This document shows, piece by piece, positions 24,540 to 43,558 of a stretch of 60,009 bases of DNA (the stretch's first letter is position 1; every line of letters begins with the position of its first letter). Below the pieces are notes generated by a model. It had not been told where the DNA came from. It ran no database searches and worked only from the letters and a program-made list of their open reading frames with translations. Origin of the DNA: an uncultured Bacteroidales bacterium (lineage in GTDB: Bacteria > Bacteroidota > Bacteroidia > Bacteroidales > Paludibacteraceae); the NCBI GenBank assembly GCA_903911085.1, contig CAIWCC010000264.1, forward strand, positions 1 to 60,009. Direction: 5' to 3'. A program made the translations under genes and the position numbers.

Positions 24540-27500
24540 ATGAAAAACTTCACTTTAAAAACATTTGTTTTGTTGCTTTTCATTGTTTTATCATTGACAA
24601 TTCATGCAACAACAGCACCAACAATCACTCTCAACCCAACATCGGTTGTTTTAGACCAGTCCAATACTTGGACTTTTGACTTTACTGGCAGCAGTTTAAC
24701 TGGCTCAGAAACTCTTGAAATTTACTTTTGGCAACCAACCATTCATGCAAATATTGCCTTAACAAATTTGGGTGGTAAAAAATGGTCGCTAACATTTACT
24801 CCTACTACTTTTTTTGGTCTAACAATGCAGGAGATTTCTGAAAACACAAACCAGTTTTATTACAATATTCAACTTGCTGGTGTAAATTATTCAGGTACTT
24901 TACATACTACTTTTGCAACCCCAATTACAACTATTGCACCTATATCTACAATTAGTAATCCTTTGGGTACTTACGCATTAGACCAACAAGTTACTTGGAC
25001 ATTTGATTTAACTGGTTCAGGTTTTAAAGCTGGAAACGACTTGTATATGTATGCTTGGTCGCCATCTATGCCCGACCCAAACTTTAACAGTTCAACAGCT
25101 ATATCGAAACTTACTTATGTGAGTGGAATGACTTGGTCGAAAACAATTACTCCAACTACTTATTTTGGCAAAACAGTAGCTGAAATTCAAGCCTCAGCTG
25201 GTTTTTGGATGAAAATAAAAGACCAAACTGGAAAAATTGAAACAGCAGTATTTACTGTTCCACAAACCATAAAAGGCAATTCGAGCATAACAGCCACTGG
25301 AACTGCAAGTTACACTTATTCTGGGTCTGCTCAAGGTCCAGCAAGTTCTACTGTTACAGGATCGTCAGGAGCAATAACGTATAGTTATTCTGGCACTGGA
25401 AGCACCGTTTATTCCGCAACAACTACCAAGCCAACCAATGTGGGAACATATCAAGTTATTGCATCGGTAGCTGCAGATGCAAGTTATAATGCAGCTAGTT
25501 CCAGTGCATTGGCATTTAGTATTGCTATAGCGCCTCAAACTATTACCTTTGGAACGTTAAGTACAAAAAATGATATTGATGCAAATTTTGATTTAACGGC
25601 AACAGCAAGTTCAGGATTAGCTATTACTTATGCAAGTTCCAATACTGCTGTGGCATCCGTAACTGGAAGCACAGTAACAATCATAAGTGAAGGAACTACA
25701 ACAATTACAGCATCGCAGGCAGGTAATAGTAATATTGCAGCAGCAACTTCTGTACCTCAAACTTTGACGGTTACAACACCAAGCAGTTTCAATCTTAAAA
25801 AGACGTTTTTATTTGACTTCGGTAACACTTATGCCTCCACCTCAGCACCCGATGCCAATGGAAATTATTGGAATAACATTAATACATTAAATTCAAATGA
25901 TAATTTTGCTTTGGTAGACAAAACGAACCTATCGGCATATAACTTACAATTATTAAGCACTTTTGGTCAAAGTGGCGGGGTAAATAATGGATTAGCATCG
26001 CCTGAATCTGCACAATTAGGCGAACTTGCTATAGCCACAGCAACTGGTGATTATTTTTATACAAATACAAATGCTAACTTTAAACTTACTGGATTAAGCA
26101 CATCAAAACGATACAAATTCTATATTTTTGGAAGTAGAGTTGATGCTGCATCACGACAAACAAAATTTTCAATTACTGGATTGAATTCCACTCCAATAGA
26201 AGGAATTCTTACTACTTCAGGAACTAGTATTGGGCTTGTTGGTGGACTCGTTTACAACGGAAATACGAGCAATATTTTAGTCTCTACAAAAATAAAAGCA
26301 AGTGTTAGTGGTGAGATTATAATCAATGTACTAAAACTAGCTGGTGCAAACGCTCATATTAATGCTATGAAAGTTGAAGAATACTACAATGATCAAACAA
26401 TAACTTTTGGCAGTTTACCAACTGGAAAAACCGTAGGCGAAGACGATTTCAATCCTGGAGCGACATCAGCAACATCGGCAATAAATGCAATTACTTACTC
26501 AAGTTCCAATACAGAAGCGGCAACCATTGTATCCAATAAAATTCATATTGTTGGTGTTGGAACAACTATCATTACTGCTTCGCAAGGTGCTGGTAGCAAT
26601 TACAATGCAGCTACAAATGTTACTCAAAGTATAACTATAGCGGCTCGTCCAATTATTCCAATTTCGAGTTATGCAACTTCAGCTAATCTTACTACTCCAA
26701 CAGCCGATATCAATATTTCGGGGGCTGCAACTACTTTATTGGTAGACGCAACCAAAACTGTGAACAATGTTTCAGTAGGATCTGACACAAAACTAAATTT
26801 ATCAGATGGAAAAACACTAATTTTAACAGGGAATTTAGATTTGAAAGCCGATTTAAACACTTCATTTAGTACAAACATTGGCAACGGTGGAATTTCAATA
26901 TCAGGAAATGTACGCTACTTAAAAACAATTGATGACCAAAAATGGTACTTTGTAGCATTCCCATGTGAAGTACCAATTTTTCAAATTACAACCACATCGG
27001 GGTCACTTGGAATACTCGGAAACGATTGGTTTATAAAATATTACGATGGCGAACAACGAGCTTTAAATGGTGCAAGTACAACAAACTGGAAATCAATAAC
27101 CAATACTGCTTTGTCGCTTGAAGCTAATAGAGGATATATCATTGGACTTGCTGGCAACAGTAATACAACAAAAGAACTTTCATTCCCAATAGACAAAAAC
27201 TTATTTGTGAATGAAATAGCTAAAACAATTCCTGTATTAGCAAACAATGGTGGTACAATAACTAATAATGGTTGGAATTTAGTTGGACAACCTTATTTAA
27301 GTAAATATGATGTGCAAGGAGCTGGATTCTCGTCAGTTTATTTTTCTAAATCAAATGGAATTGGCTATGAAAATTATATCAAAGAGTTTGATGGTACACG
27401 GCTAATCAATCCTTTTTCGGCATACTTCGTACAAGTAGGTGGCAATGGTAACATCTCGTTCGACAAAGTATTTAGACAATCGTCACCAACTTCAGTTTCA

Positions 27501-28151
27501 ACAAGTATTTCTGACAAGTTGCAAATTAACTTTTCAACACCCGCTGGCACTGATAGAACTAACATTATAATGGACAATGATCAAGCTACGAATTATGTTA
27601 TTGGTGAAGATTTGGAAAAATGGCTCGGTGCAGAAGTATCAGTATATACAGTTTTGGATGGCATAAATTACGCATTAAACTCGCTTCCAATTGCAACTGT
27701 AAATAACTTAGCACTTGCATATTATACCCAAACTAGCGGTTCAGCCACTATTAGTGTAAATGCCACACGAGCACCTAGTTTATCAAAGTTGATATTATTG
27801 GACAAAACCTTCGGAATAGAAACAGATTTGCTGACTTCCGATTACACTTTTGATGCAATAGCAGGAACAAATAATTCTCGATTTGTAATTTCTGCTCAAC
27901 GCATTTCAACGGCTAATGACAACAAAACTGATGCTAAAACACCAATTTTGGCAATTATTAATTCTAAATTAAGAATCAATAATTTAAATAACGGTTCAAT
28001 CGTTCGGGTATATGATGCTCTCGGTCGAATGGTAGCAAACAAAGTAGGGAATAACAGTACTTTGGAAGTAGAACTTTCGACAAATGGTATATATACTGTC
28101 CAAATGGAAAATGGAGAAAAAAGTTGGGTAAAAAAGATTGCAAATAAATAG
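24540..28151 (+). CDS. Multidomain T9SS-secreted surface protein with two W-rich modules
   Basis: A 1203-residue exported protein with a signal peptide (about 1-23). Modules A (about 27-130) and B (about 140-242) are homologous to each other and to those in four other proteins of this locus; each has TWTFD, a Y/F-x-W-x-P segment, W-S in TPTT(F/Y)FG, and a final aromatic strand. Then come an MBG-like repeat (TYSGSAQGP, about 245-335), a Big-like domain (TITFGTLSTKND), a region of about 200 residues reminiscent of malectin-like folds (LFDFGN...INAMKVEEYY), a second Big-like domain, a long uncharacterised region, and a T9SS type A sorting domain (VRVYDALGRMV, end WVKKIANK). No catalytic motif is seen, so a glycan-binding or adhesive role is inferred. 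The start at ATG 24540 is preferred over ATG 24516 because it gives a proper signal peptide and matches the paralogues. Confidence 0.85.
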   Translation: MKNFTLKTFVLLLFIVLSLTIHATTAPTITLNPTSVVLDQSNTWTFDFTGSSLTGSETLEIYFWQPTIHANIALTNLGGKKWSLTFTPTTFFGLTMQEISENTNQFYYNIQLAGVNYSGTLHTTFATPITTIAPISTISNPLGTYALDQQVTWTFDLTGSGFKAGNDLYMYAWSPSMPDPNFNSSTAISKLTYVSGMTWSKTITPTTYFGKTVAEIQASAGFWMKIKDQTGKIETAVFTVPQTIKGNSSITATGTASYTYSGSAQGPASSTVTGSSGAITYSYSGTGSTVYSATTTKPTNVGTYQVIASVAADASYNAASSSALAFSIAIAPQTITFGTLSTKNDIDANFDLTATASSGLAITYASSNTAVASVTGSTVTIISEGTTTITASQAGNSNIAAATSVPQTLTVTTPSSFNLKKTFLFDFGNTYASTSAPDANGNYWNNINTLNSNDNFALVDKTNLSAYNLQLLSTFGQSGGVNNGLASPESAQLGELAIATATGDYFYTNTNANFKLTGLSTSKRYKFYIFGSRVDAASRQTKFSITGLNSTPIEGILTTSGTSIGLVGGLVYNGNTSNILVSTKIKASVSGEIIINVLKLAGANAHINAMKVEEYYNDQTITFGSLPTGKTVGEDDFNPGATSATSAINAITYSSSNTEAATIVSNKIHIVGVGTTIITASQGAGSNYNAATNVTQSITIAARPIIPISSYATSANLTTPTADINISGAATTLLVDATKTVNNVSVGSDTKLNLSDGKTLILTGNLDLKADLNTSFSTNIGNGGISISGNVRYLKTIDDQKWYFVAFPCEVPIFQITTTSGSLGILGNDWFIKYYDGEQRALNGASTTNWKSITNTALSLEANRGYIIGLAGNSNTTKELSFPIDKNLFVNEIAKTIPVLANNGGTITNNGWNLVGQPYLSKYDVQGAGFSSVYFSKSNGIGYENYIKEFDGTRLINPFSAYFVQVGGNGNISFDKVFRQSSPTSVSTSISDKLQINFSTPAGTDRTNIIMDNDQATNYVIGEDLEKWLGAEVSVYTVLDGINYALNSLPIATVNNLALAYYTQTSGSATISVNATRAPSLSKLILLDKTFGIETDLLTSDYTFDAIAGTNNSRFVISAQRISTANDNKTDAKTPILAIINSKLRINNLNNGSIVRVYDALGRMVANKVGNNSTLEVELSTNGIYTVQMENGEKSWVKKIANK

Positions 28152-28427
28152 AAAGAAAAGTAGACAAATCACAGAAGGGGGGATGAAGTTATGATTAATA
28201 ATTTTCTGGTTTGACTTATAAAATGGGAAAAACCATAAAATGAGATTAACTATTTCTCTCCTTCTTAAATTTTGATTAACCACAAAAAATTAATTCTCGA
28301 TTGTCCGTTTTTTTGATGACCTTTGTGTCTCAATTTCAAAAAAAAAAAACGATAAAAAACAGCAAAATAGATTTTACATAAACAAATTAAATATTTGTAC
28401 ACAAAAATTCAATCTTATAATAACATC

Positions 28428-31193
28428 ATGAAAACAATTACATTTAAAATCATCATTTTCTTATTACTTTGTTTTTCATTTTATGCTAAATCTGCAACAA
28501 TAGCAAGTCCAACAATAACAATAAATCCCAGCGCAATAATTTTAAATCAGCCTAATACATGGACTTTTGACTTTGCAGGAAGCGCTTTAACTGGAACCGA
28601 AAATCTGGTAATTTATTTCTGGCAACCAACCACACACGCCTCCGTATCATTATCAAATTTAGGCAACAAAAAATGGTCATTGACCTTCACTCCCACTACA
28701 TTCTTTGGTTTGTCGATGGCTCAAATAGCAGCAAATAAAGACCAATTTTATTTTAATATTCAAGATGGCGTTGGTGGAGTTACAGGTACTCTGCATACTA
28801 CATTTTCAACCCCTGTTACTACTATGGCACCAATAAGTGTGACCAATAATCCTGTTGGAAATTTTGCCTTGGATCAACCTGTCACATGGACTTTTGACCT
28901 TACAGGTTCTGGTTTTACTGCTGGAATGGACTTATATATGTGGGCTTGGTCACCTTCAAACCCCGATGCTCCAAACTACAGTAATTCATCTGCTTTTACA
29001 AAATTGACTTACGTAAGCGGAATGACTTGGACGAAAACAATTACACCTACAATATATTTTGGAAAAACTGTAGCAGAAATACAGGCCGCCTCAGGCTTCT
29101 GGATGAAGTTAAAAGATTTGACTGGGAAAATTGAAACATTAACTTTTACAACGGTTAATGTGGATGCTACTTCAATAACTATTTCTGGATCAGACATTAC
29201 AACGCCTGCTACTTCAATTCAATTAAATATTATTTACACACCCACAACTGCAACTCAAAAAGTTATCACTTGGTCGGTTGACGATGCAACTATTGCTTCC
29301 ATTAGTAATACGGGGTTATTGACACCCTTGAAAAATGGAAAAGTAAATATTACAGCTTCATTTACGCAAAATGGACAAACTATAAGCACCACCAAGGAAA
29401 TTACAATTTCAAATCAGCTGTCTGAGTTTTATGTGTCGGGTACTGCCACTAAAAATGGTGATAATCAATCTACTGCACTTTCGATGAATCAAGCAATGGG
29501 TGTTTCGGGAATTATACCTGGCGTTTTTGAACTTTCGACAACAATAAATGCAACGGGAACACTTAAATTTTATGCTTCTAAAACCGACAATACACTGACT
29601 TATGGTGCTGGACTCGCAGCGGGAACAATTGCGGCTAACGGTGTAGGAATTGACCCTTCAGAATCGGGGCAAGTTTTAATTCGTGTATATTTAGCTACTA
29701 ATACTTACAAAATATTTCCTATCGATTCAATGAAAATTTCGATGATGGGATCATCGGTTGCTTTTGGTTATGGAGCTACTTCAAATCGAGGATATGCATA
29801 CCAATACAATCAGCTTTTACAACAGCGATATGCAAACAACACAGGATTAAATTGGTCATTATCAAATATCTCTATAGGTGGAAATACAACTGTAGATTTG
29901 CTCAACCGTTGGGATTCCGATTTATTGAACAATGGAGGTAAATATGTTATTTACGCACTTTCGCTAGCCAATGAAGGTGTACTTTCTACAGGTCAAGTTG
30001 CTTTTGATCAGTTCAAAAAAAACATGTTGCTGCTAATCGAAAAAGCTAAGTCGGTAGGAAAAATTCCAATAATTGCTGGAAATTATTCGAATTATTATTA
30101 CAACTCCACTCATTATGCTTTTGTGAATCAAATGAATATGCTGATTAATGATTGGGATGTACCAAGTATCAATCTGCTTGGAAACATTGATGATGGAACA
30201 GGAAAATGGCCAACAACACCTGTAAATTATCAATTCGATAGTGCCCACCCAAATGATGCTGGTCATGCCGAAATGTCTTTGGCAATTGTGCCTTCGCTGT
30301 TTGATGCATTGCAAGCTAAAAAGCCACAACCGCAAAAGCAAAATGGAACTTACATTAGTATGGGAAAGAGTATTACAACCGATAAACTATCATTTACACC
30401 CGAAAATATGGTGCATTCATTCACTTTAGTGGTAGATGTAAAAACAAGTTCGAATGGCACAATTACCTCATTCAAACAAGGTTCTACCAATGGGAATGTT
30501 CGGATTGAAGCTACAACAGGCTGTATAACTTACATTTCACCAAATGGCGGTACGATAAATGGAGTTGTAGTTATAAATGATGGACAATGGCATAAAATAA
30601 CTTTGACACATTATTATGCGTGGGGACAAACCATTTTGTACACCGATAATACCGAAGCCGGCAGAATTTCTGAGAAACTTTCAGCTACCGATTTCTTTCT
30701 AAACGACAGCAATGCACCAGCAACTATCGATTATCGGAACTGGATGTTTTACCGTGCAGGAATGAATGTTGGTGAAATTGCAGCATTAAATGCTGATAAA
30801 ATGCTGAAATCGAGTCTTGAATTGTATGCACCACTTGATGGCCAAAAAGTAAATTCGAATGATACGTTAATTAATTTGGCTCAAAGTACTAACAAAATAC
30901 AACGCATAAAAATAAGTACCAAAATAAAAAAATTATCACAAAACTGTAGCATTAAATTATTTCCAAATCCAGTTCGAAATGAATTGAATGTTTTGGGGCT
31001 AGAACAAAACAAACATTATGATTATAGTGTTTATAGTTTAGATGGAAAAAAAACTTTGAAATCAATAAGATTAACAAAAAACACAGTAGATGTTTCTGGT
31101 CTACCATCAAGTCATTATATTATAATATTGAACGACAAATTAAGTTCGGAACAAATTGCTTTGCATTTTCAAAAGATTGATTTGAATAGATAA
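28428..31193 (+). CDS. T9SS-secreted SGNH hydrolase with W-rich modules and LamG-like domain
   Basis: A 921-residue exported protein: signal peptide, modules A and B (about 30-245, with KLTYVSGMTW), a Big2-like domain (about 246-330), a catalytic SGNH region, a LamG-like domain (about 645-825) and a T9SS sorting domain. The hydrolase region has MGSSVAFG (Ser443 at the nucleophile position, with serine replacing the usual GDS aspartate), SIGGNTTVDL, and DSAHPNDAGH (Asp604, His607). Such enzymes are carbohydrate or lipid esterases; deacetylation of a polysaccharide is a reasonable guess. The start is taken at ATG 28428 rather than TTG 28395 because it gives a clean signal peptide. About 275 bp separate it from the upstream paralogue with no clear terminator. 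Confidence 0.85.
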   Translation: MKTITFKIIIFLLLCFSFYAKSATIASPTITINPSAIILNQPNTWTFDFAGSALTGTENLVIYFWQPTTHASVSLSNLGNKKWSLTFTPTTFFGLSMAQIAANKDQFYFNIQDGVGGVTGTLHTTFSTPVTTMAPISVTNNPVGNFALDQPVTWTFDLTGSGFTAGMDLYMWAWSPSNPDAPNYSNSSAFTKLTYVSGMTWTKTITPTIYFGKTVAEIQAASGFWMKLKDLTGKIETLTFTTVNVDATSITISGSDITTPATSIQLNIIYTPTTATQKVITWSVDDATIASISNTGLLTPLKNGKVNITASFTQNGQTISTTKEITISNQLSEFYVSGTATKNGDNQSTALSMNQAMGVSGIIPGVFELSTTINATGTLKFYASKTDNTLTYGAGLAAGTIAANGVGIDPSESGQVLIRVYLATNTYKIFPIDSMKISMMGSSVAFGYGATSNRGYAYQYNQLLQQRYANNTGLNWSLSNISIGGNTTVDLLNRWDSDLLNNGGKYVIYALSLANEGVLSTGQVAFDQFKKNMLLLIEKAKSVGKIPIIAGNYSNYYYNSTHYAFVNQMNMLINDWDVPSINLLGNIDDGTGKWPTTPVNYQFDSAHPNDAGHAEMSLAIVPSLFDALQAKKPQPQKQNGTYISMGKSITTDKLSFTPENMVHSFTLVVDVKTSSNGTITSFKQGSTNGNVRIEATTGCITYISPNGGTINGVVVINDGQWHKITLTHYYAWGQTILYTDNTEAGRISEKLSATDFFLNDSNAPATIDYRNWMFYRAGMNVGEIAALNADKMLKSSLELYAPLDGQKVNSNDTLINLAQSTNKIQRIKISTKIKKLSQNCSIKLFPNPVRNELNVLGLEQNKHYDYSVYSLDGKKTLKSIRLTKNTVDVSGLPSSHYIIILNDKLSSEQIALHFQKIDLNR

Positions 31194-31396
31194 TTTTATA
31201 TAAAGAATTGAAATGAACAGTTTAGGAAGGTCTGCTAAAAAAAACAACCATACATCTGATAAATAAGCAATTGTAACGTAAATTAAATTATTTTTCGTGG
31301 TATTTTACACTGTTTATTAAGCAACTACTTTGGAGTTCTTCAGTATTGATTCTTGATTTTAATGTCTCTTATTTATCTTCATATAATTTATAAACA

Positions 31397-33817
31397 ATGG
31401 AAATCAAAGCAGACAATATCAGATATTTTTTCACTGTATTTATTTACATCCTCTTCTCTATAAGTTTATTTTCGCAGACCACCAATGTGCAATTCAATGT
31501 AAATATGAAATTGAAAAGCAGTACTGGTAATTTTTTGCCCAAAACCGAATTTGTTGACTTATCCGGAAGTTTTAATAGTTGGGGTTCTACAAAACTTACA
31601 GATACCGATGGAGACAGTATTTATACAACAACTCTTACACTAATTGTAGGAAGTAATATTGAATTTAAAGCCAGAATAAATGGACTTTGGACTGGTAGAG
31701 AAGAATTTTCGGGTGGTGGTTCAAACCGGACTTATACAGTGGCTTCAAATGGAATTGTCAGTTTTTGGTACAACGATGATATTCCGTCTTACATATTATC
31801 TGTAAAGGCTTTAGCATCAAACCGTTCAATTATTCCAGGGCAATCTATTCAGTTTTTTGATAAATCTAACGGATCTCCAATTTCGTGGCAATGGACATTT
31901 TCTGGAGGTACACCGTCCACATCAAATATTCAAAATCCAATTGTAAACTATTCTAGTGAAGGAAAATATTCGGTAAGTTTGAAAATAAAAAATATAAAAT
32001 CCGATTCAATAACTCAAACTTGGTCCGATTACATAAACGTGTCCAATGCCAGTACATATTGGTGGAACGATGCTGTTTTTTACGAAGTATTTGTACGAAG
32101 TTTTTTTGATCAAAACGGTGACGGCAAAGGCGATTTAAAGGGATTAACGGCCAAACTCGATTACCTGAATGATGGCGATTCAACCACACATACCGATTTA
32201 GGGATTACTGCTATTTGGTTAATGCCTGTAATGCAATCGCCTAGTTATCATGGATATGACGTAACCGACTACCGCACTATTGAGAGCGATTATGGAACCA
32301 ATGCCGATTTCACTGCTTTTATTCAAGCGGCTCACAAACGTGGCATCAAAGTAATTATTGATTTGGTAATGAACCATACCTCCGACCAAAATCCGTGGTT
32401 TATACAATCGGCATCAAGTACAACCTCTTCATATCGAAACTGGTACAGATGGAACACTACCAACCCTAGTGGATCGTGGAACTCAAAGAATGGTTCATTT
32501 TATTACGCCGTTTTTGGGAGCAATATGCCCGATGTGAATTATGCAGATGCCAATGCAAAAGCAGAAATGTTCGACATTGCTCGATTTTGGTTACAAGATA
32601 TGAATGTGGATGGTTTTAGATTAGATGCAGTAAAATATATTTTTGAAACCGCCACGCAAACCGAAAATGTACCAGAAACATTTCAGTTTTGGAAAGATTT
32701 TCGCTCAACGTATAAATCCATCAACCCCAATTCATTTGCTGTTGGTGAAGCATGGTCATCAACCAGCATAGCCAAAAAATATGTTGAAAATAATGGATTG
32801 GATTACTGTTTTGAATTCAGTTTAGCCAGTGCATTAGTCAATGCAGCAAACAACGCCGATGCCATCAACCTGCAAACACAAGTTGAGGCTGCCATGTCAA
32901 GTTATCCATACCTTCAATTTGGAACTTTCCTCACCAATCACGACCAAGAAAGAGTTATGTCATCATTGGGCGGCGATTTATCCAAAGCTAAGTTGGCAGC
33001 TCAGTTGTTACTCAGTTTTCCGGGCATTCCATTTATATATTACGGCGAAGAAATTGGTACTGTGGGTCCAAAACCTGATGAAAATATTCGCACTCCAATG
33101 CAATGGAACAATACTACAAATGCGGGATTCAGCACCATAACACCTTGGCGATCACCGCAGGCTGACTATACTTCAAAAAATATTGCAAGCCAACAAAAAG
33201 ACAATTCATCGCTTTGGACCGTCTACAACAAAATGATACAGATTAGAAATGCTGAACCAGTTTTGCGCAGAGGAAACTATGCCACAATACCTTCTAGTGC
33301 AAGTTCTGGATTTGTTTTTATGCGTCAATACCAGACTGAAAGTATAATTATAGCTTCCAATTTGAGTAACATTCCGATTAATAATTTACAAATAAGTCTT
33401 TATCCTGGTTCATTATCAGCAGGGAATTATCAACTCAAAGATTTACTTTCCGGCAATTCAATCAATCTTGTTGTATCGTCCGATGGAAGTGCAACGGGAC
33501 AAAATATTGGTAATTTAGCTGGTCGAACTACTGCAATATTTAAAATTATTGGTAATAGCGCAGGTTTAAATGTTGAGAATTCAAATACCATTTGCATTTT
33601 TCCAATTCCCGCCCATGATAAACTAACAATTTTATTAGATACCAACCAAAAAAGGAATGCGACTGTGACTTTTTCTGACTTAACAGGCAAAGTAATTAAA
33701 CGTGCATTTATCAATGAATCTACGACGTTATTAGTTAGTGATTTACAATCAGGAGTTTATATACTGAAAGTTAATGATGGAATTAGTACTACTACAAGAA
33801 AAATTGTAATAAAGTAA
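31397..33817 (+). CDS. GH13 alpha-amylase family enzyme with CBM-like and PKD domains, T9SS cargo
   Basis: The 806-residue secreted enzyme has a signal peptide (about 1-26), an N-terminal glycan-binding-like domain (VDLSGSFNSWG, about 30-125), a PKD domain (GQSIQFFDKSNG...VSLKIKN, about 140-215), a GH13 barrel and a T9SS sorting domain. The barrel shows VFYEVFVRSF, DLVMNHTS, GFRLDAVKY (nucleophile Asp410), VGEAWS (acid/base Glu451) and FLTNHDQER (Asp516), so it should be active on alpha-1,4 or related alpha-glucosidic bonds. Surface location via T9SS suggests it makes the first cuts in an extracellular alpha-glucan before SusCD import. The gene ends in a strong hairpin. Confidence 0.95.
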   Translation: MEIKADNIRYFFTVFIYILFSISLFSQTTNVQFNVNMKLKSSTGNFLPKTEFVDLSGSFNSWGSTKLTDTDGDSIYTTTLTLIVGSNIEFKARINGLWTGREEFSGGGSNRTYTVASNGIVSFWYNDDIPSYILSVKALASNRSIIPGQSIQFFDKSNGSPISWQWTFSGGTPSTSNIQNPIVNYSSEGKYSVSLKIKNIKSDSITQTWSDYINVSNASTYWWNDAVFYEVFVRSFFDQNGDGKGDLKGLTAKLDYLNDGDSTTHTDLGITAIWLMPVMQSPSYHGYDVTDYRTIESDYGTNADFTAFIQAAHKRGIKVIIDLVMNHTSDQNPWFIQSASSTTSSYRNWYRWNTTNPSGSWNSKNGSFYYAVFGSNMPDVNYADANAKAEMFDIARFWLQDMNVDGFRLDAVKYIFETATQTENVPETFQFWKDFRSTYKSINPNSFAVGEAWSSTSIAKKYVENNGLDYCFEFSLASALVNAANNADAINLQTQVEAAMSSYPYLQFGTFLTNHDQERVMSSLGGDLSKAKLAAQLLLSFPGIPFIYYGEEIGTVGPKPDENIRTPMQWNNTTNAGFSTITPWRSPQADYTSKNIASQQKDNSSLWTVYNKMIQIRNAEPVLRRGNYATIPSSASSGFVFMRQYQTESIIIASNLSNIPINNLQISLYPGSLSAGNYQLKDLLSGNSINLVVSSDGSATGQNIGNLAGRTTAIFKIIGNSAGLNVENSNTICIFPIPAHDKLTILLDTNQKRNATVTFSDLTGKVIKRAFINESTTLLVSDLQSGVYILKVNDGISTTTRKIVIK

Positions 33818-33877
33818 TCACTATTTTTTCAATATTGAAAAAGGTTAGTATTGGTTGTTCCATTTTTCACTGATAAA

Positions 33878-33917
33878 AAACAATCAACAAGGATTCGACT
33901 TTGTTGATTGTTTTGCG
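33878..33917 (+). terminator. Intrinsic terminator after the GH13 gene
   Basis: A perfect 13-bp stem (33878-33890 with 33901-33913) with a 10-nt loop ends in TTTT. The A-run on the left arm makes it look bidirectional. Confidence 0.85.
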
Positions 33918-34343
33918 TTTATTGTTTACTTCCATCCAACGTTGACAAGCGCAAGTTCGCTGAAAGGTATTGTTGCTGCATTATAGCTGACATCGCAAAA
34001 ACAGCATGTCATCAACGAAAGGGAAAGCGATTTTAATAATCGAACTTAAGTGTACCTAAAAAAACTCAAGTGCTGCTAATAAAAAAAACACATTCCTTAT
34101 TTAGTATGACGCCTGTTGAATATATCAATTCACAGTAAAATTCATCAATTTATACAAATAATATCATTATATTTTCAGCATTATCATTTATACATAAAGC
34201 ATTAAATATCAACACTCTAAAATTAATATACTCAATAAATGATTATATCTTTTTTAGTATCTGGATAATCAATAATTATTTGCTATAAATTTGCACAATC
34301 AAAACGAATTACAAATTTTCTATCACCTTAAACTCACTAAAAA
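33918..34343. other. Intergenic region with a compositionally distinct patch
   Basis: Between the GH13 terminator and the lipoprotein gene. At about 33930-34050 the sequence is GC-richer than its surroundings, and the minus strand carries a 28-codon frame (34012 to 33926) ending in ELALVNVGWK. This may be a fossil gene end or part of an intergenic repeat; no full gene is present. TAAATTTG at 34286-34293 is a plausible -7 box for the next gene. Confidence 0.45.
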
Positions 34344-34871
34344 ATGAAAACAATCAAGTACTCGTTCGCACTCATTTTGTTCTCTACGTTGCAATTTACC
34401 GCTTGCACTATAACCGACGATGGAACTTATGTGGCACCAATTAGTATTTCCGAAAAAATTCAGGGAAATTGGGCTACAATAAGTGTAAATCAAATTGATG
34501 AAGTAGCAAAAGCTATTGATAAAACAACAAGTCCATTGTACCTAACAACACAATTCAATTTTTCTACATTTAATATCACTTTCAATGTAGATGCAACAAC
34601 AAATCTTCCAACAACTTATCAAATTGGTGGTAGTTCACCTGCTTTATTTCCAACACAAGGATACTGGAATTTAGCCAATTTATATCCTAATACCGATACT
34701 ACACCAAGTCAGATTATTCTATATTCGGATGCCGAAAAGACTGTTAAGACCGCCACTTTGGATATTACAACTATGCCTGGTGCAATAAAAACACTCGAAT
34801 TACGATTTACCCGCAAAACAAAGGGAATAGCTTTTGTTTCTTACACATTTAAATTATCTCCAACAAACTAA
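34344..34871 (+). CDS. Small outer-membrane lipoprotein (DUF5004-like)
   Basis: A 175-residue protein with a lipoprotein signal peptide ending in LQFTAC (lipidated Cys21). The mature part has the IQGNWATISV-type opening, a central QFNFS...ITFNVD region and a final beta-rich half that fit the DUF5004-like or lipocalin-like lipoproteins often encoded in Bacteroidota glycan loci. Function unknown. It is 49 bp upstream of the next module-bearing gene and probably heads the transcript that runs through susC and susD, because a terminator lies before it and a -7-like box is present. Confidence 0.7.
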   Translation: MKTIKYSFALILFSTLQFTACTITDDGTYVAPISISEKIQGNWATISVNQIDEVAKAIDKTTSPLYLTTQFNFSTFNITFNVDATTNLPTTYQIGGSSPALFPTQGYWNLANLYPNTDTTPSQIILYSDAEKTVKTATLDITTMPGAIKTLELRFTRKTKGIAFVSYTFKLSPTN

Positions 34872-34920
34872 TAATCAATAATTAAACAAAACAATAATCA
34901 TCATTAAAAAAATCAAAATC

Positions 34921-35925
34921 ATGAAAACAATTACTTTCAAAATCGCAATTTTCTTTTTGCTTTTTTTGTCTTTAAACGCTAATGCAGCAGCTCCAACAAT
35001 AACTCTAAATCCTACCGCGATAGTTTTAGACCAGTCCAACACATGGACATTCGACTTTACTAGTAGTGGTTTAGGATTAACTGGTACAGAAAGTTTAGTT
35101 ATTTATTTCTGGGAACCTGCCTCTCACGCATCTGTGGCTTTGACAAATGTAGGAGGTCTTAAATGGGCATTGACTTTTACACCTACCACTTTTTTTGGTA
35201 AGTCAGTAGCTCAAATTGCAGCAAATACAAACCAGTTTTATTATAATATTCAACAAATTGGTGTTACTGGAAGTATTTCTGGAACTTTGCATACAACATT
35301 TACTACTCCTGTTTTAACAACTGCACCTGTATCAGTTACAGGTAGCCCCAAAGGAGCATACCCTTTAGACCAACCGGTTACATGGAATTTCGACTTAACA
35401 GGTTCTGGTTTCACAGCTGGGATGGATGTATATATGTGGGCATGGACACCAACAAATCCAGATGCTGCAAACTGGATTAATTCTTCGGCTTTTGCCAAAC
35501 TTACTTATGTTAGTGGCATGACTTGGTCGAAAACCCTTACTCCTACCACTTACTTTGGTGCATCTGTTGCTACAATTCAGGCAGCAACTGTTTTCTGGAT
35601 GAAATTAAAGGACTTGACTGGTAAAGTTGAAACAACTTCTTTCAATGTTCCACAAACTTTCAGTACTACAGGTATAGAAAACAATTCTCAAAATTCTTTT
35701 GAAGCATACCCTAATCCTGTTATTAACGACCTCACTATTAAACTCAAAGAAAATAATTTCGACAATATTAGTCTATATGATTTTAAAGGAAGTTTGTTAA
35801 GGAAAAGTCAAATTGCAACTGGTCAATTGGAGTTAAAGCAAAATTTTGAATCTCTTGGCAAAGGAATTTATTTCCTTGTTTTGAATGGCGAAAAATCGAG
35901 CCAAACAATAAAAGTAATCAAATAA
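34921..35925 (+). CDS. T9SS-secreted two-module protein (A+B), candidate surface glycan-binding protein
   Basis: The 334-residue protein is the minimal form of the family in this locus: signal peptide (about 1-22), module A (about 24-130), module B (about 142-243, with KLTYVSGMTW), and a T9SS sorting domain (AYPNPVINDL, SLYDFKGSL, GIYFLVLNGEKS). Both modules are rich in tryptophan and end in a strand like FWMKLKDLTGK. There is no enzyme motif. Because it is exported to the surface and encoded just before susC, a glycan-binding role analogous to SusE/SusF is inferred, although those are lipoproteins and this is T9SS cargo. A long hairpin lies between it and its paralogue downstream. Confidence 0.85.
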   Translation: MKTITFKIAIFFLLFLSLNANAAAPTITLNPTAIVLDQSNTWTFDFTSSGLGLTGTESLVIYFWEPASHASVALTNVGGLKWALTFTPTTFFGKSVAQIAANTNQFYYNIQQIGVTGSISGTLHTTFTTPVLTTAPVSVTGSPKGAYPLDQPVTWNFDLTGSGFTAGMDVYMWAWTPTNPDAANWINSSAFAKLTYVSGMTWSKTLTPTTYFGASVATIQAATVFWMKLKDLTGKVETTSFNVPQTFSTTGIENNSQNSFEAYPNPVINDLTIKLKENNFDNISLYDFKGSLLRKSQIATGQLELKQNFESLGKGIYFLVLNGEKSSQTIKVIK

Positions 35926-35938
35926 AAAATGATTCTAA

Positions 35939-35987
35939 TTTATAATTAACCGTCAGACCGTTTTCCACGGTCGGACGGAATTATAAA
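35939..35987 (+). repeat. Strong intercistronic hairpin
   Basis: CCGTCAGACCGT (35950-35961) pairs with 35967-35978 with one mismatch around a 5-nt loop, and the stem is extended by TTTATAATT/AATTATAAA (35939-35947 with 35979-35987). No long T-run follows, so it may act as an RNA-stability or processing element between two cotranscribed paralogues rather than as a full terminator. Confidence 0.65.
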
Positions 35988-36023
35988 ATTTCCAGTCAAA
36001 AAATCATAAAAAAAAATACTATC

Positions 36024-37061
36024 ATGAAATCAAAAATTACAATAGCAATACGTTTCGTATTGATTATTTTGGCTTTCTGCACATTTGAAACTACCAAAGC
36101 AACCGTTCCAAATCCCATAATTATAAGCAATCCAACAACTTTGGCTATAGACAAAACTGTAACTTGGACATTTGATTTCACTGGTAATACTAAAACGAGT
36201 AATACTGCCAATTTTTTTACCGAAGGCGAAGATTTAGTTATCTACTTTTGGGATCCAGCTCAACATGCATCAGTTGCACTAACCTATCTTGGTAGTTCAA
36301 AATGGTCGTTTACAATGACTCCTACAACATTTTTCAATCTTACATTTTCTCAAATTGCACTTAGTGCAAATCAATTTTGGTTTAATATTCAGAGCCTTAC
36401 TACCGGAAGTAATAATTTAACGGGCAGTCTGCATATGGCTTTTGGTGCACAATCCACAACGGCTCCAGTGAGTGTTACTGGAACTCCATCAGGAACATAT
36501 CCATTAAATCAACCAGTTACATGGACTTTTGATATGACTGGTTCAGCTTTCACACCAGCGCAAGACTTGTATATTTGGGTTTGGACTCCTAATAATCCCG
36601 ATGCAGGCAATTTTGCTAATTCTTCAGCTTTTACCAAACTAACTTATGTGAGTGGAATGACATGGTCATTCACACTTACCCCTACTGCATTTTTTAACAC
36701 AACAGTAAGTGGTATTACCGATTCATTTTGGATGTTACTGAAAGATAAAACTGGAAAAATTCAAACTCCCACAATAAATGTTCCTTTAACTATATCGGGT
36801 ACAGGTGTTCATCAAAACCAACAAAACTTCTTAGAAGTTTACCCGAATCCCGTTATTAACACACTCAATATCAAGTTGAAAGATACAAGATTTAAAAATG
36901 CTAGCATTTACGATTTCAAAGGTTCTTTGGTTAGAAATGAAGCAATCGTAAATGTTCAGTCTGAGCTAAAGTTAAATTTAGAGAACGAAAAATCAGGAAT
37001 ATATTTCGTCGTTTTGAGTGGTGAAAAATCTACTCAGACAATTAAAATCAGCAAAAAATAG
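36024..37061 (+). CDS. T9SS-secreted two-module protein (A+B), paralogue
   Basis: The 345-residue paralogue of the gene at 34921 has the same plan: signal peptide (about 1-28), module A (about 33-145, with a short insertion near NTKTSNTANF), module B (about 155-255, with KLTYVSGMTW and SFWMLLKDKTGK) and a T9SS sorting domain (VYPNPVINTL, SIYDFKGSLV, GIYFVVLSGEKS). The two sorting domains are close to each other, so the gene pair probably arose by local duplication. The module sequences have diverged more, as if to bind different glycan features. No catalytic residues are apparent. Confidence 0.85.
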   Translation: MKSKITIAIRFVLIILAFCTFETTKATVPNPIIISNPTTLAIDKTVTWTFDFTGNTKTSNTANFFTEGEDLVIYFWDPAQHASVALTYLGSSKWSFTMTPTTFFNLTFSQIALSANQFWFNIQSLTTGSNNLTGSLHMAFGAQSTTAPVSVTGTPSGTYPLNQPVTWTFDMTGSAFTPAQDLYIWVWTPNNPDAGNFANSSAFTKLTYVSGMTWSFTLTPTAFFNTTVSGITDSFWMLLKDKTGKIQTPTINVPLTISGTGVHQNQQNFLEVYPNPVINTLNIKLKDTRFKNASIYDFKGSLVRNEAIVNVQSELKLNLENEKSGIYFVVLSGEKSTQTIKISKK

Positions 37062-37108
37062 TTGGTTTGGCTTTCACCATACATTTAAACACCATATTAA
37101 TTTACACC

Positions 37109-37837
37109 ATGAAAAAAACAATTTTAAAAACAATAATTTTTGTGTTGGCATGTCTACCAATAGGTTCTTTTTCGCAAGAAACTGGCGCACCGGCAAGAAC
37201 TTGGGCTGACCCATTAGATTATACTTTGGATCAACCGGTAACTTGGTATTTTGATATGACAGGGACGTCTTTTGCCGACGGTCAGGATTTGTATATGTGG
37301 GCTTGGTCGCCATCTGAACCAGATGCAGGGCATTTTGCACACTCATCTGAATTTGCAAAATTGGAATATGTGGGCAATATGGTTTGGAAAAAAACTTTGA
37401 CACCAACATTGTATTTTAGCAAAACAGTAGCAGAAATTAAAGCTTCTCCAGGTTTTTGGATGCGTTTAAAGGGTTTGACAGATGTACTGCAAAGTGGCGT
37501 ATTTAAAGTGGAATTTGGATTACCTCCTATTCCCAAAAAAGAACCTGAAGTTTCAATTTTCCCTCGTAAATTCTGCCAATTAGATATCATTAGCATTTAC
37601 AGAAAATACAACGAAAAATCAACTACTACTTTAACTTACAAAATTGTGGCAGGAAGCAAAACCATTTCGGGAGCAATGGCTGGTAATCAAGCAGAAATGA
37701 AAGTTACAGTCAATCTAATGAGCAGTTTAAGTAACGAGCCTTCGTTAGATAAAATAAAGCTTATAATTAAAAACGAAAGTGATGTTGAAGTTTCAAACTC
37801 CGATTTTCCAGTGGTACCTTTAACTGAAGTTGAATAA
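37109..37837 (+). CDS. Exported single-module (B) protein with unknown C-terminal domain
   Basis: The 242-residue protein has a signal peptide (about 1-23), only the B-type module (about 35-135: LDQPVTWYFDMTG, YMWAWSPSEPD, KLEYVGNMVW, FWMRLKG), and an unrecognised C-terminal region of about 100 residues. It has neither a lipobox nor a T9SS sorting domain, so a periplasmic location is more likely than the cell surface. It ends 15 bp before susC and is therefore almost certainly in the same operon. The start at ATG 37109 is used because the upstream extension begins at a TTG inside the intergenic leader and would precede the signal peptide. Confidence 0.8.
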   Translation: MKKTILKTIIFVLACLPIGSFSQETGAPARTWADPLDYTLDQPVTWYFDMTGTSFADGQDLYMWAWSPSEPDAGHFAHSSEFAKLEYVGNMVWKKTLTPTLYFSKTVAEIKASPGFWMRLKGLTDVLQSGVFKVEFGLPPIPKKEPEVSIFPRKFCQLDIISIYRKYNEKSTTTLTYKIVAGSKTISGAMAGNQAEMKVTVNLMSSLSNEPSLDKIKLIIKNESDVEVSNSDFPVVPLTEVE

Positions 37838-37852
37838 TAAAAAAATAGTGCT

Positions 37853-40792
37853 ATGAAACTGAAAACAAAATATATACATACGACTTTTGTAAGATCAATC
37901 TTTGTTGCGTTGATGTTAATATTGATAAATCAACAAGCCAATTCTCAAAATTTCACAGTAAAAGGCGTAGTAATCGACAACAAAAATGAAACGATAATAG
38001 GTGTAAACGTAAAAGTGAGTGGAAGTAAACTAGGAACAATTACCGATATGAATGGTGCATTTTCGCTATCGTGCGAAAAAGGAAGTACTCTCGAAATATC
38101 GTACATTGGCTATGAATCTCAAAAAGTAAAGGCTCAACCCACTTTGCAAATCAAAATGCTCGAAAATGCCATTGCTTTACAAGAAACCGTTGTGGTTGGT
38201 ATTGGTTATGGGAGTATGCGAAAATCCGATTTAACAGGAGCTATTACATCCGTAAATCAAAAAGACATGAAAAAAGGTGTAGTTACTTCTGCCGAACAAC
38301 TTTTGCAAGGAAAAGTAGCTGGACTCTCAGTTGTACAGGGCTCAGGTGACCCAGCAGCAGGTTCGTCGATGAAATTAAGAGGTGGTACTTCGCTTTCGGC
38401 TGGAAACTCGCCATTGGTAGTGGTAGATGGAATTCCTGGTGTTGATTTTAATTCAGTACAACCGTCCGAAATCATTAGTGTTGATGTATTGAAAGATGCT
38501 TCATCCAGTGCTATTTATGGTTCTCGAGGAGCAAATGGCGTCATCATTGTTACTACCAATAGAGGCGCAAGCAACACCGAAGTTAAAAGCGTTTCGTACA
38601 ATGGATATGTTGGAGTTGGAAATGTAGCAAAACATATAGATTTACTTTCAGCAAACCAATGGAGAGGTTATGTGCGTGACAACAATATATTGACAGCCAT
38701 CGATTTTGGTGCAAATACCGATTGGCAAAAGGAATTGGAACAAACAGCCATTTCTCAATCTCACAATATATATTTTAACAGAGCAAATACTAACGGCGGT
38801 TACCGTGCATCGATAACTTACTCAGACAATCAAGGCGTTATGAAAAAAAGCGCAATGAATCGTTTAGCAGGAAGTCTTTCGGCTTATCAATATGCATTGA
38901 ACAAAAAATTAAAAATTGAAGCGGGTGTTAATAGCAGTGTAGATAACTGGACACCAATTGATTTGCGAGTAATAGAAAGAGCTGCCAACTTAAATCCAAC
39001 TGTTCCGGTTTACGATGCCAATGGAAAATATACTTCTATTGGGGGTACTAATACTGAAAATCCGGTGGAATTGATGAATAACAGAAACGATGATGAATCG
39101 CGTCACCGATTACTAGGTTATGGAAAAATAGAATTGGATATTGCAAAAGGTTTAAAAGCAGTTACTAACGCGTCCTACGAATATAATTCCTATTTACGCC
39201 GTTACTATATTCCATCTTATGCAGTTATGGAAGGTATGTCATTAAAAGGTCATGGCGAAAGAAGTTTGGCTGATAATTCTACCAAGCAGCTAGAGGCATA
39301 TTTAACTAAAGATATTGAATTTGCAAAAATGAATAAACTCAGTTTGATGGCTGGATATTCGTACATGGAAACTGTGTATGAAGGATTTGGAGCTATACGA
39401 AGCGGTTTTGACACAGATGCTTTTTTGTACAATAACTTAGCTGCAGGATCGGATTATACCACTGGCGATGTCTATTCATATAAAGGTCAGTCAAATTTAA
39501 TTTCGTTTTTTGGTCGTGCCAATTATAATTACCTTGGTAAATATATGTTTACTGCCTCAATTCGTCAGGATGGTTCTTCACGTTTTGGATTGAATAATAA
39601 ATGGGGATTATTTCCATCGGCATCTGCAGCTTGGCGTATTTCGGACGAACCATTTATGAAAAGCACTGCTAATTGGCTAAATAACTTAAAGTTACGTTTT
39701 GGTTATGGCGTAACTGGTAATCAAGATGGAATTGGCGATTACAAATCACTAGCTATTCTGGGAGCCAACGGAGCTTCGTATTACGATGCAGCTACTGATA
39801 TGTGGAAAAAATCGTACGCACCTGTTCAGAATGTAAATCCCGATTTGAAATGGGAATCTACTTCGCAGTATAACATTGGAATTGACTTTAGCTTAATCAA
39901 CAAAATTACTGGTACTATTGAATTGTACAGTAAAAAAACCAGTGACCTACTTTGGACATATCCCGTACCACAACCACCTTATATTGTTGGTACAATGCTT
40001 GCCAATGTTGGCGATTTGAGCAATAAAGGTGTGGAACTTACTTTGAATGTAAACATCATTAAATCAAAAGATTTCAATTGCGATGCTAACCTAACATTTG
40101 CTTATAACGACCAAAAAATTGATAAACTATCGAATGAAGTTTTTCAAGAATCAGGATTAAAATCAGGGTCACTTCATGGTTTACGCGGCATGTCGGGCAT
40201 GTATTCTCAAGTTATCAAAGAAGGTTATCCTGCAGGAGCTTTCTGGGGTCCAATATGTAATGGAATTGACCCAGATGGAAAATATATTTTAAATAGCGAC
40301 ACATTAGGAAACCCAATTAACGAATATCTTGGCAGTGCACAACCAAAATACAATGTCGGTTTCGGCATGAATTTTAGCTACAAAGCGTTCGATTTAGGTT
40401 TCAGTACTTACGGTATGTTTGGGCAAAAAGTGCTAAATGCCAGTTCAATGAGTATGTATGACCCCACCCGTTTACCATCGCAAAACGTGCCTGATGGATT
40501 TTTGTCAAGCGGAATAAAAACCGATCCAACTTTCTCAAGTTATTGGGTTGAAAATGGTTCATTCTTTCGCTTACAATCGGTTACACTTGGTTATACCGTG
40601 CCAAAGAAATACAATTTTGGCTTAGAAAAAGTAAGAGTTTATATTACTGGCGAAAATTTGTTTGTACTCACAAAATACAGTGGAACCGACCCCGAAGTAA
40701 ATAACAACGGACTTGATGCACCAGGTATCGACCGTTTTAATTATTATCCTCGTCCACGCACAATTTCATTTGGCTTAAACATTTCATTATAA
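37853..40792 (+). CDS. SusC/RagA-type TonB-dependent outer-membrane transporter
   Basis: Imports oligosaccharides across the outer membrane with the SusD partner, powered by TonB. The 979-residue protein has a signal peptide (cleavage near NSQN), an N-terminal carboxypeptidase-regulatory-like domain (TVKGVVIDNKNETIIGVNV), a probable TonB-box region (ETVVVGIGYG), a plug domain (LLQGKVAGLSVVQGSGDP, LVVVDGIPG, SSAIYGSRGANGVI) and a long beta-barrel ending in RPRTISFGLNISL with a terminal leucine. Length is normal. It is followed by susD after 19 bp and preceded by module-bearing genes. The encoded enzymes suggest the cargo is an alpha-glucan oligosaccharide. Confidence 0.97.
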   Translation: MKLKTKYIHTTFVRSIFVALMLILINQQANSQNFTVKGVVIDNKNETIIGVNVKVSGSKLGTITDMNGAFSLSCEKGSTLEISYIGYESQKVKAQPTLQIKMLENAIALQETVVVGIGYGSMRKSDLTGAITSVNQKDMKKGVVTSAEQLLQGKVAGLSVVQGSGDPAAGSSMKLRGGTSLSAGNSPLVVVDGIPGVDFNSVQPSEIISVDVLKDASSSAIYGSRGANGVIIVTTNRGASNTEVKSVSYNGYVGVGNVAKHIDLLSANQWRGYVRDNNILTAIDFGANTDWQKELEQTAISQSHNIYFNRANTNGGYRASITYSDNQGVMKKSAMNRLAGSLSAYQYALNKKLKIEAGVNSSVDNWTPIDLRVIERAANLNPTVPVYDANGKYTSIGGTNTENPVELMNNRNDDESRHRLLGYGKIELDIAKGLKAVTNASYEYNSYLRRYYIPSYAVMEGMSLKGHGERSLADNSTKQLEAYLTKDIEFAKMNKLSLMAGYSYMETVYEGFGAIRSGFDTDAFLYNNLAAGSDYTTGDVYSYKGQSNLISFFGRANYNYLGKYMFTASIRQDGSSRFGLNNKWGLFPSASAAWRISDEPFMKSTANWLNNLKLRFGYGVTGNQDGIGDYKSLAILGANGASYYDAATDMWKKSYAPVQNVNPDLKWESTSQYNIGIDFSLINKITGTIELYSKKTSDLLWTYPVPQPPYIVGTMLANVGDLSNKGVELTLNVNIIKSKDFNCDANLTFAYNDQKIDKLSNEVFQESGLKSGSLHGLRGMSGMYSQVIKEGYPAGAFWGPICNGIDPDGKYILNSDTLGNPINEYLGSAQPKYNVGFGMNFSYKAFDLGFSTYGMFGQKVLNASSMSMYDPTRLPSQNVPDGFLSSGIKTDPTFSSYWVENGSFFRLQSVTLGYTVPKKYNFGLEKVRVYITGENLFVLTKYSGTDPEVNNNGLDAPGIDRFNYYPRPRTISFGLNISL

Positions 40793-40811: not shown

Positions 40812-42326
40812 ATGAAAACAAAACATATTACATTCGTCCTGCTTTTATCAATGTCATTGGCAGCTTGTACCAACTTAGATGAAGTTCTGTACGATAAAGT
40901 ATCGATGGATGAATACGGAAAAACTACTACGGAAGTTCAAACCATTGTTGGTGGTGCTTATGCAACATTAAGAGGTTTCAGTGATGCCGACAAAGGTGGT
41001 ACAAATTGCTATCCAACATGCGAATTCGTGTTTTTTCTGAGCGAATGTGCATCCGACGAAGCTTGCATACCAACTCGTGGAACCGACTGGTATGACGGTG
41101 GTCGTTACCAACAAATTCAATATCACACTTGGGATGCCAATAATATATTGATATTAAGTTCTTGGAAATATTGCTTCCAAGGAATTGCAAATATCAACTC
41201 CATTATTTATCAAGTTGGAAAATCGGGTTTAAAAGCCAATGAGAAAGAAATAGTAAATGCCGAACTTCGCGGTTTGAGAGCTTATTATTACTACCAATTG
41301 CTGGACATGTTTGGCAGTGTGCCTATTGTTACTGATTTTGAATCGACAGGATTGCCCGAAAAATCAACCCGCACGCAGGTTTTTGAATTTATAGAAAGTG
41401 AGTTAAATGATATTATGACTAAACTCCCAGCCACAATTTCTTATGGTAGGTTTACACAGAATGTAGCCAACACATTGTTAGCCAGACTATATCTAAATGC
41501 TGAAGTTTATACTGGAACTGTTCGTTGGAAAGACTGTATTGATGTTTGCGCCAAAATTACTGGTTATACATTGGAACCAAATTACTTTGAAAGTTTTAAA
41601 ACTGCCAATGAAAAATCTTCAGAAATAATTTTTGCCATTCCTTACGATCATAAAGAAAATACGGTGGGAAATTATTTGGCTTCGATGACATTCCATTACA
41701 ATCAAAAATACGCATTTTCGGCCACTGCTGCTTATCCTTGGTGTGGCAATGGAATTTGCGGAAAGCCAGGTTTATATACCTCTTTCGATGCAAATGATAT
41801 TCGCCGTCAATCACTTTTAATTGGCGATCAGCTTAACATTGTAACCGGAGCTGTAATTATGATGGACAACGGTAATCCGCTGACATACACCGAAGATATT
41901 GTAGATTTTACCAAAGCGTTACAAAACGAAGGTGCTCGTCTTTTCAAATACGAAGTACAAGGCGACGACAAATGGGAACGTGACAACGATTGGGTACTGA
42001 TGCGGTATTCGGAAGTATTAATGATGGTAGCAGAAGCTAATTTCCGATTGGGATTTGTTGGCAATTCATTGCCATACATCAATAAAATTCGTAAACGCGC
42101 TGGATTAGCTGACGTTGCAGTAGTTACCGAAACTGTACTTGACGATGAATGGAAACACGAATTCGTATTCGAAGGTTTAAGAAGAACTACTAATATACGA
42201 TTCGGAACATTTTTTAAACCATGGTGGAATAAAACAGCAACTCCATTATTTAGAGGCGTTTATCCAATTCCACAAACTGTAATTGATTTGAATCCAAAAA
42301 TCAAACAAAATCCTGACTACCAATGA
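40812..42326 (+). CDS. SusD/RagB-type glycan-binding outer-membrane lipoprotein
   Basis: The 504-residue lipoprotein caps the SusC barrel and binds the incoming glycan. It has a lipobox SLAAC (Cys19), the SusD-like start NLDEVLYDKVS, the TPR-type helices with AELRGLRAYYYYQLLDMFG and VPIVTDFE, and a C-terminal segment with DWVLMRYSEVLMMVAEANFR and HEFVFEGLRR followed by YPIPQTVIDLNPKIKQNPDY. All are diagnostic of the family. Its stop codon overlaps the start of the GH71/99-like gene by 4 bp, showing tight co-translation. Confidence 0.97.
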   Translation: MKTKHITFVLLLSMSLAACTNLDEVLYDKVSMDEYGKTTTEVQTIVGGAYATLRGFSDADKGGTNCYPTCEFVFFLSECASDEACIPTRGTDWYDGGRYQQIQYHTWDANNILILSSWKYCFQGIANINSIIYQVGKSGLKANEKEIVNAELRGLRAYYYYQLLDMFGSVPIVTDFESTGLPEKSTRTQVFEFIESELNDIMTKLPATISYGRFTQNVANTLLARLYLNAEVYTGTVRWKDCIDVCAKITGYTLEPNYFESFKTANEKSSEIIFAIPYDHKENTVGNYLASMTFHYNQKYAFSATAAYPWCGNGICGKPGLYTSFDANDIRRQSLLIGDQLNIVTGAVIMMDNGNPLTYTEDIVDFTKALQNEGARLFKYEVQGDDKWERDNDWVLMRYSEVLMMVAEANFRLGFVGNSLPYINKIRKRAGLADVAVVTETVLDDEWKHEFVFEGLRRTTNIRFGTFFKPWWNKTATPLFRGVYPIPQTVIDLNPKIKQNPDYQ

Positions 42327-43546: not shown

Positions 43547-43558
43547 AATATGAGCATT

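Follow-up and report, generated by a model that had tools for sequence, protein, structure and literature searches.

What is the module that recurs in the exported proteins encoded ahead of a susC gene in an uncultured Bacteroidales bacterium, and what could it do there? The gene lies in a stretch of 60,009 nucleotides from a member of the Paludibacteraceae (GenBank assembly GCA_903911085.1, contig CAIWCC010000264.1, positions 1 to 60,009), the whole of which we refer to as the window. An earlier sequence-only reading of the window had described nine copies of one tryptophan-rich module in five exported proteins, as tandems of two types, A and B, in four proteins and as B alone in the fifth, and had proposed a carbohydrate-binding-type fold without a match to any named carbohydrate-binding module (CBM). 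Our comparisons indicate that the module is a conserved branch of a known kind that carries no label in the libraries searched, placed in an α-1,3-glucan setting, in contrast to the starch-enzyme setting of most relatives that we examined. We give a probability of about 0.68 to the reading that these modules of an α-1,3-glucan locus form a divergent α-glucan-binding family of the CBM98/DUF4961 type.

The open reading frames and profile searches agree with the earlier count. All five frames are present (24540-28151, 28428-31193, 34921-35925, 36024-37061 and 37109-37837; each protein is named here by its first position, and slightly earlier starts were called for 24540, 28428 and 37109), and together they hold nine homologous modules, four A+B tandems and one lone B (Table 1). 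A profile built from the four A copies recovered all five B copies (domain E values of 3e-18 to 3e-14), and one built from the five B copies recovered all four A copies (E values of 1e-12 to 1e-14). Aligned with each other, the two profiles scored 109 to 118, whereas 100 column shuffles reached 23.3 at most and the reversed profile 12.8. Because each profile recovers every copy of the other, we regard A and B, on the strength of their sequences, as true and old duplicates, as their resemblance had suggested. The block KLTYVSGMTW, described before as nearly constant in four B copies, is in fact identical in these four and reads KLEYVGNMVW in the fifth. The TPTT(F/Y)FG motif is present but more variable than had been described, with TPTIYFG, TPTAFFN and TPTLYFS also occurring. 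Of 31 first-look candidates in the bacterium's genome (97.9% complete, 6.25 Mb), 12 were scored; nine places matched the B profile at E ≤ 1e-3, and every one falls within the five genes; the remaining matches of a whole-protein search lay mainly over the C-terminal sorting tail of the type IX secretion system (T9SS). The copies are also old, since in a small tree 24540 and 28428 pair with copies from other genomes (L018a and L016, respectively; L numbers denote the loci compared) and not with one another.

To place the module, we compared it with known families. None of the nine copies scores above a Pfam cut-off. The earlier lack of a match to a named CBM is answered at the superfamily level, where the module is linked to CBM98, and it resembles DUF4961 (PF16328), as the sequence-only reading had suggested. 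The best DUF4961 score of a window protein is 20.6 bits against a cut-off of 27.1. The sub-threshold match of 36024 (2.8e-4) has its best stretch over B, which falls on the C-terminal ~90 positions of the profile, as do the middle modules of some 37109 orthologs from other genomes. These orthologs consist of B, a second module (B') and a C-terminal domain. Three of the six orthologs that were scanned pass the cut-off over this middle module (L049, 40.8 bits, E = 2e-10; L044, 27.9 bits, E = 1.6e-6; L065, 27.3 bits, E = 2.5e-6) and three miss it (L020, 22.5 bits; L062, 19.8 bits; L046, unmatched). The cut-off is also passed by a protein of L072 (28.6) and by the N-terminal domain of an amylase in L054.

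The link to CBM98 runs through amylases of glycoside hydrolase (GH) family 13. In profile-profile comparisons (hhalign), B scored 67.4 (E = 3e-11) against a first set of amylase-type domains, with no more than 18.6 in 100 shuffles and no more than 17.5 for 11 other domains. Between 25 B sequences and 14 amylase-type sequences (13 from GH13 amylases and one from a T9SS protein beside such an amylase) the score was 148 (E = 3e-26), a comparison that carries no shuffle control, and A scored 65.3 against the same larger set. When the first amylase-type profile was searched against PDB sequences, it matched BoGH13ASus, the SusG of Bacteroides ovatus (8dge/8dl2, 8dl1), at E = 2e-7 over residues 32 to 130, with the next match at 0.22. 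These residues lie ahead of the part, from residue 162 onward, that aligns with the remainder of the amylase, and from this domain order we infer that they are CBM98, which in BoGH13ASus binds maltooligosaccharides according to PMC11633381. Compared directly with residues 32 to 130 of 8dge, B scored 35.9, a value reached in none of 200 shuffles (maximum, 21.0), and the profile of 25 B sequences scored 43.8. PDB sequence searches with the B and A+B profiles gave nothing at E ≤ 10, and the A+B+B' profile gave three chance matches only (E values of 0.59 to 8.8).

Other candidate relatives were rejected at noise scores, namely CBM26, Big_2, PKD, T9SS-tail, LamG-like and MBG-like domains, the N-terminal stretch of the window's GH13 enzyme, the N-terminal part of GH97 and one further stretch of 28428. 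Kinship with SusE/SusF, which the sequence-only reading had raised as a distant resemblance, is likewise not supported: PF14292 and PF16411 had no match at E ≤ 5 in the five window proteins, and the hhalign scores of B with two SusF_SusE domains, 14.4 and 10.3, are at noise level. In L051, a relative encoded at 8406-11828 matches SusF_SusE below threshold (0.0018) over residues 446 to 558, outside its module. Among the matches listed in a literature search, no publication named the module; none was found for DUF4961, one for DUF5004 and four for CBM98.

The predicted structure points to the same protein. A model of the single B module of 34921 (22 sequences; predicted local distance difference test [pLDDT] score, 89.0; predicted template-modeling [TM] score, 0.80) has as its first 12 PDB matches the 12 chains of BoGH13ASus (probability, 1.00; TM score, 0.69 to 0.70; 19 to 21% identity), followed by pullulanases and isoamylase at TM scores of about 0.5. 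The sequence and structure routes thus agree, though they are not fully independent, and both lend weight to the carbohydrate-binding-type fold that had been proposed for this α-glucan locus. Conservation of aromatic residues is consistent with such a role. In the alignment, all 25 B copies have W, F or Y at the aromatic position of the GNW loop, where 13 of 14 amylase-type modules and 8dge have W. Most B copies also show Y-x-W-x-W in a strand, a pattern from which the side chains would alternate to one face. A further column, W1, depends on gap placement for modules of the VYMHSG-like sort, 8dge included, and was not used as evidence. Carbohydrate binding by the module is likely.

Several observations weigh against this interpretation. 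A alone gave nothing against the CBM98 stretch (score, 11.7), and B' alone gave a score of 25.9 with 27% probability. The hhalign E values are those of single comparisons and not of a database search, and 10 of the 11 control domains were single sequences. The structural matches to BoGH13ASus have E values of 2.7e-3 to 9.8e-3, none below 0.001, and Foldseek does not state which domain was aligned. An AlphaFold2 model of the A+B tandem (12 sequences; pLDDT, 80.1) found ordinary tandem immunoglobulin (Ig) and fibronectin type III (FN3) domains as its best structural matches, with BoGH13ASus at rank 47; interleukin-receptor matches of this model were read as generic tandem Ig folds. Finally, the A copies lack the PDxGNW loop that bears the best conserved aromatic. 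Given this missing loop and the lack of direct CBM98 similarity, the A modules may be nonbinding, may provide structural support to B, or may bind in some other way.

The likeness of the tandem to Ig/FN3 receptors and the absence of a counterpart of the aromatic loop in A are also what favor regarding the modules as Ig-like structural spacers, which would lift catalytic or binding parts off the surface without binding sugar, and 24540 and 28428 do hold further Ig-like stretches (Big_2 and, below the Pfam threshold, aBig_2). The layout of the smaller proteins is difficult to reconcile with this idea. Both 34921 and 36024 are essentially a signal peptide (judged by eye), A, B and a T9SS tail, leaving nothing to space; 28428 continues after A and B with Big_2, a GDSL-type esterase domain, a sub-threshold LamG-like stretch and the tail, and 24540 with more repeats and the tail. 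Since the GNW aromatic has in addition been kept over wide divergence and the nearest solved relative is a binding module, we consider the spacer explanation quite improbable. The T9SS C-terminal sorting domain is above the Pfam and TIGR04183 cut-offs in four of the five proteins and below them in 37109, which is B followed by a C-terminal domain, without a sorting tail. By eye, neither 37109 nor its orthologs show a cysteine lipobox. Given their export and type IX sorting tails, the four A+B proteins probably reach the cell surface or the medium. None of the nine window copies is fused to a glycoside hydrolase in the Pfam scan; relatives elsewhere do sit on GH13 enzymes.

We therefore surveyed relatives in other genomes. 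One scan of genome contigs gave five loci (L016 to L020). Among 393 genomes of the same order searched with a profile, at least 13 had a match, our bacterium's included; eight were of the 37109 type, four (G196, G030, G026 and G381) had starch-type settings or GH13, and the match in G105 (L055), which falls on the Fn3-like end of a GH3 enzyme, was taken as chance. Across the phylum, at least 49 of 395 genomes had a match. In both searches at most 12 first-look candidates were scored per genome, and the tallies may be low. Among the phylum matches we examined 16 stretches from 15 genomes: four of the eight strong short-frame matches outside the order, 10 of the many long-frame matches and two further short-frame ones. 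Orthologs of 37109 in the same gene order were found in another order of the same class (L062 to L065). All 10 long-frame matches (L066 to L071 and L074 to L077) are GH13 amylases with the module near the N terminus, eight of them beside susC and susD within the stretch examined, and L072 and L073 hold short module proteins within amylase-containing loci. A true SusE/SusF neighbors the module-bearing amylase of L066, showing that the module and SusE/SusF co-occur in starch loci, and in L053 a module protein stands between CBM26 proteins. In the searched genomes the module seems to occur most widely as the N-terminal domain of SusG-type α-amylases.

These amylases, together with the maltooligosaccharide binding of the solved relative and the GH13 genes of the window and L049, could mean that the modules bind α-1,4-glucan (starch, glycogen or maltooligosaccharides) as CBM98 does and that the locus is a broad α-glucan system. 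We regard this as unlikely, though less so than the spacer explanation, because the gene context is of another kind. α-1,3-Glucan is a tough polymer found in fungal walls and dental plaque. The window locus encodes GH87-type and GH71/99-type enzymes (Table 1), and the characterized members of these families described in PMC13421300 are mutanases or mycodextranases (GH87) and mutanases (GH71), which makes α-1,3-glucan the likely substrate, as judged from enzyme families. GH87-type genes also lie near A+B proteins in L016 (with a GDSL-type protein between) and L018 (adjacent), and near a B protein in L019. Within the stretches examined, GH71/99 and GH97 accompany the 37109 type in each of 10 loci, and GH13 does so in only two of these, the window and L049. 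Moreover, the bacterium has a separate GH13 locus, where the one remote module relative found elsewhere in its genome lies at the start of a GH13 amylase. This second α-glucan-type locus (G000 C269; L060 7917-19412) has, by eye, GH57, SusE/F-like, SusD and SusC neighbors around the amylase with its amylase-type module.

The gene for 37109 itself holds a fixed position. In 13 loci picked for carrying a gene of this type (the window, L020, L044 to L050 and L062 to L065), it is immediately upstream of susC without exception, so that the placement before susC noted in the sequence-only reading holds directly for 37109 and its orthologs, and for them only. A DUF5004 homolog lies upstream of it in all 13, adjacent in 11 and separated by module genes in the window and L020. 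susD follows susC in 11, the contigs of L047 and L048 ending in or just past a shortened susC frame, and GH71/99 and GH97 follow susD in each of the 10 loci whose contigs reach far enough; in L049 the GH71/99 gene is split across two frames and GH13 stands ahead of GH97. The window's own 37109 (37109-37834) is without the DUF4961-type middle module, at 242 residues versus ortholog frames of 364 to 417, an apparent in-frame loss when the sequences are compared. A DUF5004 relative also occurs near the module protein of the amylase-containing L072, as a weak match (2e-7). A fixed place beside susC, the missing sorting tail and the conserved C-terminal domain could instead reflect protein-protein assembly, for instance docking of T9SS proteins to the SusCD complex. 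This is the least probable explanation that we weighed, as the homologous domain sits inside amylases, for which we know of no such docking, and the nearest solved relative binds glycan.

Table 1. Modules, sorting tails and neighboring genes in the window
Feature	Positions	Strand	Basis
Module A, protein 24540	24609..24959	+	A profile, residues 24-140
Module B, protein 24540	24960..25268	+	B profile, residues 141-243
T9SS sorting tail, 24540	27963..28139	+	Pfam Por_Secre_tail 3.4e-6, TIGR04183
Module A, protein 28428 (GDSL-type esterase fusion)	28494..28850	+	A profile
Module B, protein 28428	28851..29156	+	B profile
T9SS sorting tail, 28428	30957..31142	+	Pfam 6.8e-7
GH13 amylase-type enzyme with PKD and T9SS tail	31397..33817	+	Pfam 4.9e-101
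DUF5004 protein	34344..34871	+	Pfam 4.3e-24
Module A, protein 34921	34981..35346	+	A profile; within tandem AlphaFold2 model
Module B, protein 34921	35347..35658	+	B profile; single-module model
T9SS sorting tail, 34921	35707..35919	+	Pfam 6.4e-12
Module A, protein 36024	36099..36485	+	A profile
Module B, protein 36024	36486..36788	+	B profile
T9SS sorting tail, 36024	36837..37046	+	Pfam 2.4e-13
Lone module B, protein 37109	37217..37513	+	B profile
C-terminal domain of 37109, common to orthologs	37556..37834	+	Ortholog alignment
SusC-type TonB-dependent transporter	37853..40792	+	Pfam
SusD-type lipoprotein	40812..42326	+	Pfam, NCBIfam
GH71/99-type enzyme	42323..43546	+	Pfam GH99 3.4e-12, GH71 1.4e-9
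GH97 enzyme	43550..45553	+	Pfam 1.8e-104
DUF6377 protein	45828..47525	+	Pfam 5.9e-75
GH87-type α-1,3-glucanase-like enzyme	47778..49742	+	Pfam CatAgl_D1 2.5e-29, CatAgl_D2 4e-21

Some further features of these proteins recur elsewhere. The 24540 protein contains, at about 25821-26384, a unit of ~200 residues that starts LFDFG...DANGNYWNNI (by eye) and is also seen in L018 (2128-3063), L016 (2129-6487) and L019 (6464-11902 and 14206-19275), in T9SS-type proteins beside GH87-type genes; a Pfam scan of L018 2128-3063 named nothing convincing over it. The GDSL-type esterase protein with modules (28428-31190) recurs in L016, L017, L018 and L051, its GDSL domain being confirmed by Pfam in the window and L051. 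The modules of L017, titled as a Porphyromonas cangingivalis metagenome-assembled genome (MAG), share 98% identity with modules from an uncultured Bacteroidales MAG (compare L018 8712-11492), and the L017 contig may be mis-binned. The GH71/99 enzyme (42323-43546) reads NDFGEG, similar to the DYGE motif given for PmGH99 in PMC13421300, whose authors were aware of no characterized bacterial GH71. Passages of PMC10696023 deal with a GH87 enzyme and not with this module.

How might the pieces work together? We propose that the module is a divergent member of a β-sandwich superfamily, associated with α-glucan in Bacteroidota, to which CBM98 and the C-terminal part of DUF4961 would also belong, and that it was duplicated into A and B within this locus. 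B would grip α-glucan through the GNW and YxWxW aromatics. The T9SS would probably carry the four A+B proteins to the cell surface or medium, where they could concentrate insoluble α-1,3-glucan near the GH87-type, GH71/99 and GH13 enzymes, and 37109 would most likely aid SusC/SusD in capturing or handing over oligosaccharides in or at the outer membrane.

Each system with which this arrangement can be compared shares only part of it. BoGH13ASus (8dge, 8dl1, 8dl2) has the same Bacteroidota SusC/SusD context, but its CBM98 is the N-terminal domain of an amylase (CBM48-GH13), whereas the window modules are attached to no glycoside hydrolase, in one case joined to a GDSL domain, tandem-duplicated, mostly T9SS-tailed, located in an α-1,3-glucan-type locus and about 20% identical in structural alignment. 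SusE and SusF resemble the window proteins in a possible role as accessory glycan-binding proteins, in their repeated β-sandwich modules and in belonging to a SusC/SusD system. They differ in that their genes follow susD whereas the window's module genes lie upstream of susC, and in that the window proteins have T9SS tails or, by eye, plain-looking signal peptides and not lipidation. For pPmPUL from Prevotella melaninogenica, the sections seen of PMC13421300 report the same gene content, a regulator, GH87, a TonB transporter, SusD, GH71/99 and GH97, and list two proteins of unknown function immediately ahead of the transporter, the place taken here by the DUF5004 protein and 37109. By its position and by analogy with the pPmPUL regulator, the DUF6377 protein is probably the regulator of the window locus. 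The likeness is one of reported gene content, and T9SS A+B proteins go unmentioned in those sections. pPmPUL is described there as predicted, without experimental characterization, and its authors were aware of no experimentally characterized GH87-containing locus.

The DUF4961 family, CBM98 and the amylase N-terminal domain are joined by these comparisons, so that function becomes transferable from a solved structure to unnamed proteins, and a concrete ligand-binding candidate is now at hand for a gene that stays beside susC wherever GH71/99-GH97 loci were examined, in at least two orders of one Bacteroidota class. Modules that bind α-1,3-glucan would be useful reagents. We suggest more tentatively, at somewhat less than even odds, that the B modules, and perhaps the A modules, may be the first representatives of a CBM family that is specific to insoluble α-1,3-glucan and arose from the starch-binding CBM98 line. 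Proteins of the 37109 type would then be the fixed accessory, comparable to SusE/SusF, of an α-1,3-glucan utilization system widespread among Bacteroidota.

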